Below are positions 40,143 through 44,652 of a stretch of 64,000 nt of DNA, in pieces (the stretch's first letter is position 1; each line of letters starts with the position of its first letter). Position numbers and translations under genes: made by a program. The stretch is from NCBI RefSeq assembly GCF_002001165.1, contig NZ_MUNQ01000012.1, positions 62,001 through 126,000 on the forward strand, written 5' to 3'. This stretch comes from Rhodanobacter sp. C05. GTDB taxonomy: Bacteria; Pseudomonadota; Gammaproteobacteria; Xanthomonadales; Rhodanobacteraceae. Below the pieces are notes generated by a model. That model searched no databases and was not told where the DNA came from. It saw only the letters and a list, made by a program, of their open reading frames with translations.

Positions 40143-41117
40143 ATGGTTTTACTTGTCGACATGATCCTTGCCCCCCGTCTCGTCCTGCTGGCCCTGTTCG
40201 CCTTCTTTGCGCTATGCGTGCTGCTGGTGCATCTGCGCGGACGCGTGCGGCTGCGTTTCGATCGCCAGCTGGTCGACCACTCGGCAGTCTTCGCGCCATA
40301 CAACCTGCTGATGTATGCGTTCTCAGCCGTGCCGGCGCGACCGATCCTGGACCGCCAGGGCTTCCCGCAACTGGATCTGTTGCAGGCGAACTGGCGAGCC
40401 ATCCGCGACGAGGCGACGCACCTGTTCGACGAGGGTTATATACGCGCTGCCGCGAAGAGCAACGATGCCAGTTTCAACAGTTTCTTCAAGCAGGGCTGGA
40501 AGCGTTTCTACCTGAAATGGTACGGCGAACCGCTGGCCTCGGCCGAGGCGCTGTGTCCACAGACGGTGGCCTTGCTGAAGTCGATACCCAGCGTGAAGGC
40601 CGCGATGTTCGCGCTGCTGCCGCCAGGCAGCAAGCTCAATCCGCACCGCGATCCGTTTGCCGGTTCGCTGCGTTACCACCTTGGCCTGATCACACCGAAC
40701 TCGCGGGACTGCCGCATCTTCGTCGATGGTGAGGAACATGCCTGGGGCGACGGCAAGGACGTGGTGTTCGACGAAACCTATGTGCACTGGGCCGAGAACA
40801 AGACCGAACAGACCCGGGTGATCCTGTTCGCCGACGTCGAGCGGCCGCTGCGCACGCGCTGGATGAATGCGATCAACCATCGGGTCGGCGCGTTCATGGG
40901 CAAGATCACTGCTTCACCGAACACCGAGGGCGAAACGGAGAAAACCGGTTTCGTGAACCGGCTGTTTGCGCTCAGCCAGCGCAAGCGCGGCACCGGCCAT
41001 GCATTCAAGGTGGCCTTCAAGAGCCGCTACAAGAAGCTGTACAAGGCCTGCAAGTACCTCGGGATATTGCTGCTGATCTGGCTGATCTTCCTGGCACCAT
41101 GGCCATTGTTCCGCTGA
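40143..41117 (+). CDS. lpxO: Lipid A hydroxylase LpxO-like aspartyl/asparaginyl beta-hydroxylase
   Basis: A 324-residue membrane-anchored Fe(II)/2-oxoglutarate oxygenase. A transmembrane segment (about 9-30) opens the protein and another (LGILLLIWLIFLAPWPLF) closes it. The oxygenase core includes PPGSKLNPHRDPFAGSLRYH near 161-180 with the Fe ligand His-x-Asp, and FDETYVHWAENKTEQTRVIL near 211-230 with the distal His and Arg. LpxO adds a 2-hydroxyl to a lipid A acyl chain at the inner membrane. The start may be 40143 or 40161. Confidence 0.86.
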   Translation: MVLLVDMILAPRLVLLALFAFFALCVLLVHLRGRVRLRFDRQLVDHSAVFAPYNLLMYAFSAVPARPILDRQGFPQLDLLQANWRAIRDEATHLFDEGYIRAAAKSNDASFNSFFKQGWKRFYLKWYGEPLASAEALCPQTVALLKSIPSVKAAMFALLPPGSKLNPHRDPFAGSLRYHLGLITPNSRDCRIFVDGEEHAWGDGKDVVFDETYVHWAENKTEQTRVILFADVERPLRTRWMNAINHRVGAFMGKITASPNTEGETEKTGFVNRLFALSQRKRGTGHAFKVAFKSRYKKLYKACKYLGILLLIWLIFLAPWPLFR

Positions 41118-41119
41118 GC

Positions 41120-41146
41120 AGTCACATCGCGTGATCCTGGTGCGTC
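41120..41146 (+). promoter_or_regulatory. ECF41-type promoter of the sigma factor gene
   Basis: AGTCACA (41120-41126), 16 bases, then CGTC (41143-41146). This matches six of seven and four of four positions of the ECF41 motif TGTCACA-N16-CGTC known for this sigma group, at an appropriate distance from the ATG at 41176. It implies autoregulation. Confidence 0.7.
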
Positions 41147-41175
41147 CTTGATGCATCAAGCCGACGGAGAACGCC

Positions 41176-42078
41176 ATGGATCCGCATACCGCCCTGTTCC
41201 AGCAGCACCGCTCGCGCCTGTTCGGGCTGGCGTACCGCATGCTCGGTACACCGGCCGATGCCGAAGACGTGCTGCACGACGCGTGGCTGCGCTGGCACAC
41301 ACAGGATGCCGACGCGCTGGACGATGCCGAGGCGTGGCTGGTCACCGTGACCACCCGGCTGTCACTGGATCGCCTGCGCCGCGCCAAGACCGAACGGGCG
41401 CACTATCCGGGCCCCTGGCTGCCGGAACCGCTGATCGCGGAGTCCGAGCAGCCCGAAGCACAACTGGAGCGCGCCGAGAGCCTGACCTTGACCTTCCTGC
41501 TATTGCTGGAACGTCTGAGCCCCGAGGAGCGCGCCGCCTTCCTGCTGCGTGAAGTGTTCGATTACAGCCATGCCGAGACGGCTGCGATGCTGTGCATCGG
41601 TGAGGACGCCTGCCGCCAGCGCGTGCATCGGGCGAAGCAGCGGCTGCGCGAGGATCGCCCGCGCCAAGCGATGCCGAACATCGACACCCAGCGGCGTCTG
41701 CTCGAACGCTTCATGCAGGCGCTGCAGCAGCCCGACATGTCCACGTTGCGCGCATTGTTTGCCGAAGATGCCATGAGCATCGCCGACGGCGGTGGCCTGG
41801 CACGGGCCACCCTGCACCCGCTGCACGGTGCCGAGCGGCTGGCTCGGCTGTACATGCAGATTGCGCTGCAGCAGCAGCGCCACGGCGTACGCCACGAGAT
41901 CCGCCAGCTCAATGGCGCACCGGCCCTGTTCGGCTGGTATGGCGACACGCTGGTCACGGCCAGCTGGATCGACGACGACGGCGAGCGCATCACCGCGATT
42001 CACTCGCTGCGCCACCCCGGCAAGCTCGCCCGGCTGGCGACTGTCACGAAATCGGCGGCATCCACGTCCTTGCATTGA
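41176..42078 (+). CDS. sigJ: ECF41-group RNA polymerase sigma factor (SigJ-like)
   Basis: A 300-residue extracytoplasmic-function sigma factor with a fused C-terminal SnoaL-like regulatory domain. Region 2 (about 8-75) starts FQQHRSRLFGLAYRMLGT; region 4 (about 105-160) has LERLSPEERAAFLLREVFDY. The ECF41 hallmarks are all there: WLPEPL at 81-86 in the linker, DGGG at 204-207 and NGAPA at 246-250. In this group the C-terminal domain controls activity directly without an anti-sigma factor. It is followed by the usual partner, a carboxymuconolactone decarboxylase-family gene. Confidence 0.92.
   Translation: MDPHTALFQQHRSRLFGLAYRMLGTPADAEDVLHDAWLRWHTQDADALDDAEAWLVTVTTRLSLDRLRRAKTERAHYPGPWLPEPLIAESEQPEAQLERAESLTLTFLLLLERLSPEERAAFLLREVFDYSHAETAAMLCIGEDACRQRVHRAKQRLREDRPRQAMPNIDTQRRLLERFMQALQQPDMSTLRALFAEDAMSIADGGGLARATLHPLHGAERLARLYMQIALQQQRHGVRHEIRQLNGAPALFGWYGDTLVTASWIDDDGERITAIHSLRHPGKLARLATVTKSAASTSLH
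42042..42068 (+). promoter_or_regulatory. ECF41-type promoter of the downstream AhpD-like gene
   Basis: TGTCACG (42042-42048), 16 bases, CGTC (42065-42068): ten of eleven positions of the ECF41 motif. It lies in the last codons of the sigma factor gene, 49 bases before the ATG of the partner. Confidence 0.72.
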
Positions 42079-42116
42079 ACGGCCACTGCCGGCCGCACAC
42101 TGCGAAGGAGAACCCC

Positions 42117-42572
42117 ATGCCCCGCTTCAATGTCATCAAGCGCCCCAACGCCACCAAGCCGCTATTCGCCCTGGCCGAATACGTCAAGAACTGCGGCATC
42201 GAGCAAAGCCTGATCGAACTGGTTCTGATGCGCGCATCGCAGATCAACGGCTGCGCCTATTGCCTGGACATGCACAGCAAGGACGCCCGCGCCGCCGGTG
42301 AGACCGAGCAACGCCTGTACCTGCTGCAGGCTTGGCGCGAGGCGCCTTTCTACAGTGCACGCGAACGCGCCGCATTGGCTTGGTGCGAAGCTGTGACACG
42401 GCTCGACCCGATCCACGGCGTGCCAGACGAAGTCTACGAAGAAGCCCGCACCCAGTTCAGCGAGGAGCAGCTGATCGACCTCAACATGGCGGTGATCCTG
42501 ATCAACAGCTGGAACCGCATCGCCATCCCATCGCGAGCCGACGTGAACAGCTACAAACCGGCAGCGCACTGA
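42117..42572 (+). CDS. Carboxymuconolactone decarboxylase-family protein (ECF41 partner)
   Basis: A 151-residue AhpD-like protein. The redox motif EX(6)CxxC is visible in ASQINGCAYCLDMHSKDAR near 40-58, with the downstream His used in AhpD peroxidase chemistry. The family protects against peroxide or organic hydroperoxide, but the substrate of the ECF41-linked branch is not known. GAAGGAGA is just upstream of the ATG. It has its own ECF41 promoter and a terminator. Confidence 0.9.
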   Translation: MPRFNVIKRPNATKPLFALAEYVKNCGIEQSLIELVLMRASQINGCAYCLDMHSKDARAAGETEQRLYLLQAWREAPFYSARERAALAWCEAVTRLDPIHGVPDEVYEEARTQFSEEQLIDLNMAVILINSWNRIAIPSRADVNSYKPAAH

Positions 42573-42584
42573 ATCCACACCATG

Positions 42585-42617
42585 AAAAAGCCGCGGCGTA
42601 TCGCGCCGCGGCTTTTT
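42585..42617 (+). terminator. Terminator of the ECF41-partner gene
   Basis: AAAAAGCCGCGGCG-TATC-GCGCCGCGGCTTTTT forms a strong stem with T tract; its A-rich left arm lets it work for the convergent isocitrate dehydrogenase gene as well. Confidence 0.92.
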
Positions 42618-42637
42618 CGTATCAAGGCTGTTGAAAC

Positions 42638-43874: not shown

Positions 43875-44255
43875 TCAGGCGTGATCGGTGCAGGCGGCCG
43901 CATCGTTGCCGCTGCCCGACTCGAGCTGGTCGAGCAGATCCACGGCACGGCGCAGGTGCGGGATCACGATCGAGCCGCCCACTACCAGACCCACGCTGAA
44001 TACCTCGAAGAACGCATCGCGCTCGACGCCGGCTTCCTTGCACTGGGCTACGTGATAGCTGATGCAGTCGTCGCAACGCAGTACCAGCGAGGCGACCAGG
44101 CCGAGCATCTCCTTGGTCTTCACATCGAGCGCACCAGCCTTGTAGGTCTGCGTATCCAGCGCGAAGAAGCGCCGCACGACCTGATTGTCCTCGGCCAGGA
44201 TGCGCTCGTTCATGCGCTGGCGAAACGCGGTGAATTCGGCAAGCTTGTCGCTCAT
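43875..44255 (-). CDS. Carboxymuconolactone decarboxylase-family (AhpD-like) protein
   Basis: A 126-residue protein with the CxxC redox motif in SLVLRCDDCISYHVAQCKEA near 56-75, preceded by the conserved KTKEMLGL helix. It differs from the ECF41-linked paralogue at 42117 and ends in an Asp/Ala-rich tail. It starts with an ATG that overlaps the stop of the glutaredoxin gene by four bases, so both are likely made together and may be redox partners. Actual substrate unknown. Confidence 0.86.
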   Translation of the reverse strand: MSDKLAEFTAFRQRMNERILAEDNQVVRRFFALDTQTYKAGALDVKTKEMLGLVASLVLRCDDCISYHVAQCKEAGVERDAFFEVFSVGLVVGGSIVIPHLRRAVDLLDQLESGSGNDAAACTDHA

Positions 44256-44515
44256 GCGCCCTGCTCCAGCAACTGCGTCAACTTGCCGCTGCGGTCGGCC
44301 GCCACCAGCTCGTCATACCCACCCACGAACTGGTCGTTGATGAAGATCTGCGGCACGGTGCGGTGCCCACCACTGCGTGCCAGCATGGCATCGCGCTGGA
44401 CCGGGTCGGTATCGACGCGCACTTCGCTCCATTCCAGCCCCTTGGACTTGAGCAAGTTCTTGGCGGCCACGCAGTATGGGCATACGGCGGTGGAATAGAC
44501 CTCGATCTTCGACAT
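44252..44515 (-). CDS. grxC: Glutaredoxin 3 (GrxC)
   Basis: An 87-residue dithiol glutaredoxin. The active site CPYC is at residues 12-15 (VYSTAVCPYCVAAKNLL); TVPQIFINDQFVGGYDEL near 54-71 binds glutathione. It reduces disulfides using glutathione. The start at 44515 has GGAG eight bases upstream. It is transcribed ahead of an AhpD-like gene. Confidence 0.94.
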   Translation of the reverse strand: MSKIEVYSTAVCPYCVAAKNLLKSKGLEWSEVRVDTDPVQRDAMLARSGGHRTVPQIFINDQFVGGYDELVAADRSGKLTQLLEQGA

Positions 44516-44652
44516 CACGACACTCCGGAACAACTGAAAAGGACCGCCTGAAAATGGGGTGCGCGGGCCAGCTACTCAAGCCGCGGCAGCCCCTTATTCA
44601 GGCACTGAACCAGCGCCGCCGTTGGCGGTCACAGTGCTATTGTCGCCTACCG

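Follow-up and report, generated by a model that had tools for sequence, protein, structure and literature searches.

Rhodanobacter sp. C05, a soil bacterium of the Rhodanobacteraceae (Lysobacterales) with a genome of 4.25 Mb in 30 contigs, carries a sigma factor gene directly followed by a gene for an enzyme of the CMD/AhpD type. We analysed this pair within a stretch of 64,000 nucleotides, referred to here as the window, to which all coordinates apply unless a locus is named. The gene order comprises an LpxO-like hydroxylase gene, the sigma gene and the CMD gene, all on the forward strand, then a terminator-like hairpin and an isocitrate dehydrogenase gene on the opposite strand. The gene for the LpxO-like lipid A hydroxylase (40143-41117, forward strand; NF033391 with 412 bits, below the cut-off of 500) ends just 5′ of the promoter of the sigma gene, and 43 of 44 orthologous loci have a similar gene that ends no more than 200 nt before the sigma gene. 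The terminator-like hairpin with its A/T flanks (42582-42620 on the forward strand; -31.8 kcal/mol on this strand, -29 kcal/mol on the other) is common to the CMD gene and the convergent isocitrate dehydrogenase gene; a pattern scan for terminators did not pick it up, probably because its T run pairs within the stem. Past the isocitrate dehydrogenase gene, a second CMD/AhpD-type gene (43875-44255, reverse strand; PF02627) adjoins a glutaredoxin gene (44252-44533, reverse strand; PF00462), and for these two no link to ECF41 promoters was seen in the window.

The sigma gene (41176-42078, forward strand, with ATG at 41176 and the stop codon TGA at 42076-42078) encodes 300 amino acids. The protein contains sigma regions 2 (PF04542, residues 7-71) and 4 (PF08281, residues 107-157) only, as ECF factors do, and a C-terminal extension of 143 residues after region 4, where about 100 residues with three conserved motifs are expected for ECF41. 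It scores above the cut-off for the SigJ subfamily NF007214 and slightly under the cut-off for TIGR02957 (SigX4), and it matches SigJ of Mycobacterium tuberculosis (PDB 5xe7) over residues 7-235 with E=3.3e-38. The two sigma regions and the SigJ subfamily assignment uphold the identification as an ECF41 factor made in an earlier note on this DNA, and the hallmarks WLPEPL, DGGG and NGAPA named there are all found in the protein. Among the 44 orthologues, DGGG occurs in 43, NGxPA in 36 and [HN]PxKL in all 44, letters which we take to be the three conserved motifs of the ECF41 extension. The linker motif WLPEP, present in 40 of the 44, has been described for ECF41 factors (Wecke et al. 2012, PMC3426412). 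No SnoaL match was obtained for the extension in Pfam at E<=1e-3, and the alignment with the PDB structure of SigJ stops at residue 235. The genome contains one ECF41-like gene; the other matches, with 28-33% identity, extend over residues 5-162 at most. Within the genus the locus is not universal: the sigma gene is absent (no match at E<=1e-30) from 18 of 45 Rhodanobacter genomes, and one more has a distant paralogue only.

The CMD gene (42117-42572, forward strand) encodes 151 amino acids with a CxxC core (GCAYC). The protein matches PF02627 with E=6.8e-19, lies above the cut-off for the ahpD core profile TIGR00778 and matches the PDB entries 2gmy and 7xw1. By its CMD domain and CxxC core it is assigned from sequence to the CMD/AhpD family, and the AhpD-like partner noted before is thus upheld by PF02627 and TIGR00778. 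A putative ribosome-binding site, AAGGAG, is located at 42105-42110.

In its arrangement the locus, with the CMD gene directly downstream of the sigma gene and an LpxO-like rather than an anti-sigma gene upstream, is that of ECF41. Wecke et al. (2012, PMC3426412) report from experiments with two further ECF41 factors that TGTCACA-N16-CGTC precedes a CMD gene, which was the sole detectable target. The systems Ecf41Bli/ydfG of Bacillus licheniformis and Ecf41Rsp/RSP_0606 of Rhodobacter sphaeroides, as presented in that text, likewise comprise a C-terminally extended sigma factor, an adjoining CMD gene, the TGTCACA-N16-CGTC promoter and no anti-sigma gene seen next to them. Table 4 of the same paper lists 53 loci of the order >ECF> >COE>, about 20% of them with both promoters, and its text gives no phenotype or signal found for ECF41. 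Unlike in the two systems named, both genes carry a promoter in Rhodanobacter. The sigma/CMD circuit with two promoters is an arrangement already described for ECF41 in 2012. The compact circuit of sigma factor and target gene put forward in the earlier note, with its gene identities, both promoters and their placement, holds and matches this description.

Promoters of the sigma and CMD genes

Both genes are preceded by an ECF41-type promoter motif on the forward strand. P1, upstream of the sigma gene, spans 41120-41146, with AGTCACA as the -35 element (41120-41126) and CGTC as the -10 element (41143-41146), and ends 30 nt 5′ of the sigma ATG. P2, upstream of the CMD gene, spans 42042-42068, with TGTCACG (42042-42048) and CGTC (42065-42068), and ends 49 nt 5′ of the CMD ATG. 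Each matches TGTCACA-N16-CGTC at 10 of 11 positions with a spacer of 16 and a single mismatch, just as the earlier note had counted. Its placement of the second promoter inside the last codons of the sigma gene is equally correct, since P2 precedes the stop codon and lies wholly within the last 12 sense codons.

The abundance of the motif is uninformative because the counts are at or below the controls: 12 occurrences with at most two mismatches in the window compared with 22.4 expected, and 36 with at most one mismatch in the genome compared with 54 for the reversed control. Enrichment was therefore discarded as evidence for the promoters. As for other targets in the genome, for which the earlier note suggested a scan, a model of promoter and hairpin (see below) raised only P2 above noise among the 150 of 4617 first-look candidates scored. 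The evidence is in the placement, which is not due to chance. With 36 matches over about 8.5 million strand positions, the probability that both short upstream stretches contain one by chance is of the order of 1e-4.

Orthologues were compared in 44 loci, 26 from the genus (including the locus studied here) and 18 from the family, with sigma identities of 67-93% apart from our own. In all 44, P1 scores 8/11 or better and lies with its first base 52-59 nt upstream of the sigma start. P2 likewise reaches 8/11 or better in all 44 and starts exactly 37 nt ahead of the end of the sigma stop codon, a position tied with another place in one locus. P2 scores 11/11 in 2 loci, 10 in 25, 9 in 12 and 8 in 5 (L022, L040, L046, L048 and L062), and P1 reaches only 8/11 in L047 and L062. 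The two promoters share an extended consensus, with C before the -35 element in 43/44 and 42/44 and C after CGTC in 43/44 and 44/44 for P1 and P2, respectively. A palindrome downstream of P1, TTGATGCATCAA at 41148-41159, was dropped from consideration, as among the 44 rows it occurs only in the window and in L017.

The position of P2 inside a reading frame allows its conservation to be read codon by codon. In frame, the -35 element is divided as x-GTC-ACG and the -10 element as xCG-TCC. The -10 codon xCG is GCG in 25 orthologues, ACG in 17 and CCG in 2, so that the amino acid varies, while its wobble base is G in 44/44; the following codon is TCC in 43/44. The -35 codons are GTC in 40/44 and ACG in 42/44. 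A wobble base that stays fixed while the amino acid changes is the reverse of usual coding evolution, and P2 is therefore under constraint at the DNA level: judged from this codon pattern, these codons preserve DNA rather than protein.

A hairpin where the CMD transcript is predicted to begin

Transcription start sites were predicted from published mapping. By 5′RACE, Wecke et al. (PMC3426412) placed the starts of ECF41 targets at a G followed by a leader of 22/23 nt according to the text, and this led us to set +1 at the 9th nucleotide after CGTC. Table 5 of that paper gives leaders of 31/32 nt for the same genes; our guess is that the two sets of values would agree if the table counts from the end of the motif. 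The predicted P2 start on the forward strand is then 42077, which is the G in the TGA that ends the sigma gene. The earlier note mentions neither this coincidence nor the hairpin described below. This base is G in 75 of 76 aligned loci, and the sigma stop codon is TGA in 61/61 loci with P2 at -37 versus 10/17 elsewhere (Fisher 7e-6, a value uncorrected for relatedness). For the sigma mRNA a leader of 21 nt without hairpin is predicted from the position of P1 (41155-41175, forward strand), and the stretch 41155-41178 folds to -0.7 kcal/mol. Predicted sigma leaders in 77 loci have 20-22 nt in 44 cases and 0-1 nt in 20. In loci of the sister family, for example L119, L121 and L128, the predicted P1 +1 falls at or next to the ATG and the sigma mRNA appears leaderless.

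Given this start, the CMD transcript opens with 5′-GAA, and a hairpin begins at +4 (42080-42095, forward strand), in which CGGCC (42080-42084) pairs with GGCCG (42091-42095) around a loop at 42085-42090. It leaves the AAGGAG stretch outside; in a fold of the whole leader, this stretch is touched by a weak 2-bp pairing. The hairpin of the window alone is unremarkable (z -0.93), and the case for it is accordingly a comparative one.

The comparison covered 88 loci. Twelve of them (L022, L042-L045, L046, L083, L088, L090, L105, L109 and L110) were left out of a 76-row alignment, no CMD gene having been detected at most 200 nt downstream; with L046 and L083 restored, 78 leaders were available, and a covariance model of promoter and hairpin was built from a thinned set of 55 of these. 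One and the same stem finder reported the hairpin in 73 of 78 P2 leaders, in 1144 of 7800 shuffled P2 leaders and in 3 of 86 P1 leaders, the folded P1 stretch being partly coding in 29 of the 86 rows because the sigma start lies less than 15 nt from the predicted +1; counting only P1 leaders of at least 15 nt, the number is 1 of 57. A stricter fold test found the hairpin in 59/76 P2 versus 2/75 P1 leaders. Among the 78 leaders, 75 have a stem of any kind; in 73 of these its first base lies at +3 to +5 and thus, given the predicted start, within a few nucleotides of the 5′ end. The loops have 3-6 nt. In L081, L107 and L108 the stem is interrupted. L105, one of the loci outside the alignment, does carry P2 and the hairpin.

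The stem also covaries. Six of seven stem pairs change on both sides, G-U pairs occur, and 81% of cells pair compared with at most 51% for slid partners, values reached in 0 of 500 shuffles; the thinned 55-row set gives a similar picture. On a tree of the sigma proteins with the promoter part removed, double changes that convert one standard pair into another on a single branch were counted 8 times, compared with 0-2 times for slid partners. The longer stem had been chosen beforehand for the pair counts, which therefore favour this structure, and the slid controls and the tree counts serve as safeguards; unguided RNAalifold recovered the three inner pairs only. By comparison of sequences, most of the P2 leaders compared are thus shown to contain a covarying 5′ hairpin at the predicted start.

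Two familiar identities for the hairpin were rejected. It is not an intrinsic terminator, as no T run follows it and the terminator scan reported none there, and it is not a known Rfam element, the two sub-threshold matches in Rfam being chance matches that both fall on the terminator at 42582-42620.

The hairpin keeps its distance to P2 where the sigma stop codon lies well upstream (e.g. L093, L095, L096 and L098), and in L046, which has two successive promoters, a hairpin is found at each. L090, L109 and L110, where the CMD gene is missing, showed no P2. In genome G014 the elements are separated: its CMD gene lies about 13 kb from the sigma gene (locus L196), accompanied by a fragment of the sigma tail that holds a 10/11 P2 and an intact hairpin. 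At the sigma gene itself (L022), the CMD gene has been lost from its position, the remaining P2 is degraded to AGTCACG/CGTA and the right arm of the hairpin is gone, while the covariance model still scores 31.9 bits. The CMD gene of G014 appears to have moved rather than to have been copied and then lost. Comparison across loci thus shows promoter and hairpin to belong with the CMD gene and not with the sigma stop codon, as far as sequence can tell.

Several further loci add to this distribution. Unlinked CMD genes with an ECF41-type promoter were met in G084 (L193, 932-991), where the stem GUGGGGC pairs with GCCCCAC, and in G239 (L198, 902-961), where the stem is bulged; both genes are candidates for distant ECF41 targets. 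In G282 (L083) the sigma gene is followed by two tandem CMD genes. Both have an ECF41 promoter, but a hairpin is present only at the first, the second promoter (10/11) being without one. Four Rhodanobacter genomes have paralogous ECF41 loci in which a LysR-type gene divergent from a CMD gene is preceded by an ECF41 promoter and a hairpin (L147 at 4886, L148 at 1801, L149 at 4648 and L150 at 5124; the LysR-type family was confirmed for L148 only).

Searched against the Rhodanobacter genome, the combined model gave one strong match, P2 with 73.6 bits, followed by 16.8 bits for the next (150 of 4617 first-look candidates scored). In the order, 79 of 298 genomes contain a match, and 78 of these 79 have an ECF41-like gene; the match in the remaining genome, G284, was judged to be due to chance. 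Conversely, 28 of 106 ECF41-bearing genomes are without a match; since these include G307 and G329, two genomes with units in the alignment, the scan misses some units. The survey for ECF41-like genes covered 299 genomes and that for model matches 298, and the two were compared by eye. Weak matches in L194, L195 and L199 and one of two in L192 were likewise attributed to chance; the other in L192 consists of a promoter and hairpin before a gene without identification, and further matches in L185, L188 and L189 have E values of 0.002-0.007. Outside the Lysobacterales, 20 of 23 ECF41 loci carry the motif at 10/11 or better, and among the folds read a comparable hairpin was seen in L118 only, at +7. 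Consequently, ECF41 function does not require the hairpin.

Proposed function of the promoter-hairpin unit

The reading we favour, and consider rather probable, is that of an ECF41 autoregulatory module in which P1 and P2 are combined with a 5′ hairpin that stabilises the CMD mRNA, the enzyme being made in excess over the sigma factor. A signal would relieve the inhibition exerted by the fused C-terminal domain of the sigma factor, which would then direct RNA polymerase to P1, from which its own gene and, by read-through, the CMD gene would be transcribed, and to P2, from which the CMD gene alone would be transcribed. The CMD mRNA from P2 would begin with 5′-GAA at the G of the sigma TGA, followed by the GC hairpin. 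With only about 3 unpaired nucleotides left at its 5′ end, this RNA would most likely be barred to RppH and RNase E and would be stabilised for this reason; the sigma mRNA would be without such protection, and the enzyme would therefore be made in excess over its regulator. We infer that this sigma factor recognises the two promoters and activates its own gene, that the mRNA is stabilised and that the C-terminal domain plays the part described; the exact start site is a prediction. In other ECF41 factors, activity rose on partial truncation of the C-terminus and was abolished by its full removal. The text of a review (PMC3997798) explains stabilisation by 5′ structure with the dependence of RppH and RNase E on single-stranded 5′ ends, and also puts at only about 10% the share of E. 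coli mRNAs affected when RppH is lost. An RppH homologue and two genes of the RNase E/G type are present in the Rhodanobacter genome.

Other roles for the hairpin have to be weighed. It might act in the long P1 transcript as a barrier to processing or decay between the sigma part and the CMD part, for which co-transcription of both genes is plausible and the hairpin, where P2 is at -37, begins about three bases or less from the sigma stop codon. We regard this as unlikely, because in loci with a distant stop codon (the four named above and others) the hairpin tracks P2 and not the stop, and because it also precedes unlinked CMD genes. An equally improbable role is that of a regulatory RNA through which a bound protein or ligand would control translation of the CMD gene. 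In favour of it, the hairpin stands in the leader of just one enzyme gene and is conserved across an order. Against it, the loops differ in length and, apart from a common first A, in most of their sequence, the hairpin does not include the ribosome-binding site, and no Rfam family scored above its gathering threshold. The inverted repeat could also be a DNA operator to which a dimeric repressor or activator binds just downstream of P2. Short palindromes at a near-fixed distance from P2 would suit an operator, and symmetric changes in both arms are expected for it too. Against it stand loops of 3 to 6 nt, which change the spacing of half-sites, G-U pairs in the stem, quite different stem sequences in L089, L107 and L193, and a window in which the sigma gene is the sole regulator gene adjoining the CMD gene, so that we give an operator little chance. 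It is hardly credible that P2 is a chance match or a decayed remnant and that the CMD gene is expressed only by read-through from P1: common as the motif is in the genome, P2 keeps its exact place in 44 orthologues, with constraint visible in the codons, and is retained at a CMD gene without an upstream sigma gene.

The proposed stabilisation of the CMD mRNA by its 5′ hairpin has known parallels in the stem-loops of ompA and papA, which consist of a short stem a few nucleotides from the 5′ end and leave the ribosome-binding site free. The Rhodanobacter CMD leader, taken from its predicted start, has the same short stem near the 5′ end and the same free ribosome-binding site. Both E. coli mRNAs are cited for their 5′-terminal stabilising stem-loops in the review (PMC3997798). 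Unlike these, the Rhodanobacter stem is tied to the target of one sigma factor, and its stabilising effect is a deduction. The locus also differs from the Ecf41Bli and Ecf41Rsp systems (PMC3426412), whose leaders have 22/23 nt by the text: here P2 lies within the sigma tail, its predicted start coincides with the stop codon and the CMD leader opens with a hairpin. The terms hairpin, stem-loop, inverted repeat and secondary structure are all absent from the main text of Wecke et al. (2012, PMC3426412), and among the mostly open-access papers listed in searches none was seen to deal with a hairpin in the leaders of ECF41 targets.

We propose that the ECF41 output of the Lysobacterales is a portable unit, in which a promoter at a near-fixed distance from a covarying 5′ hairpin marks CMD transcripts (LysR-type transcripts in the four Rhodanobacter loci) wherever they are encoded and adds a post-transcriptional layer that gives regulator and target mRNA different fates; for this wider proposal we see the balance as even. 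At the same time, the locus illustrates cleanly how a stop codon can be the predicted start site of a promoter, recognisable by wobble bases that stay fixed amid amino acid change. The motif alone cannot find ECF41 targets, being rarer in the genome than its reversed control, whereas promoter and hairpin together give one clear match in the Rhodanobacter genome and reveal unlinked CMD genes elsewhere, and ECF41 targets therefore become more predictable in the Lysobacterales. If the hairpin does stabilise the target mRNA, similar promoters would be enough for a single sigma factor to achieve weak expression of its own gene and strong expression of its enzyme.
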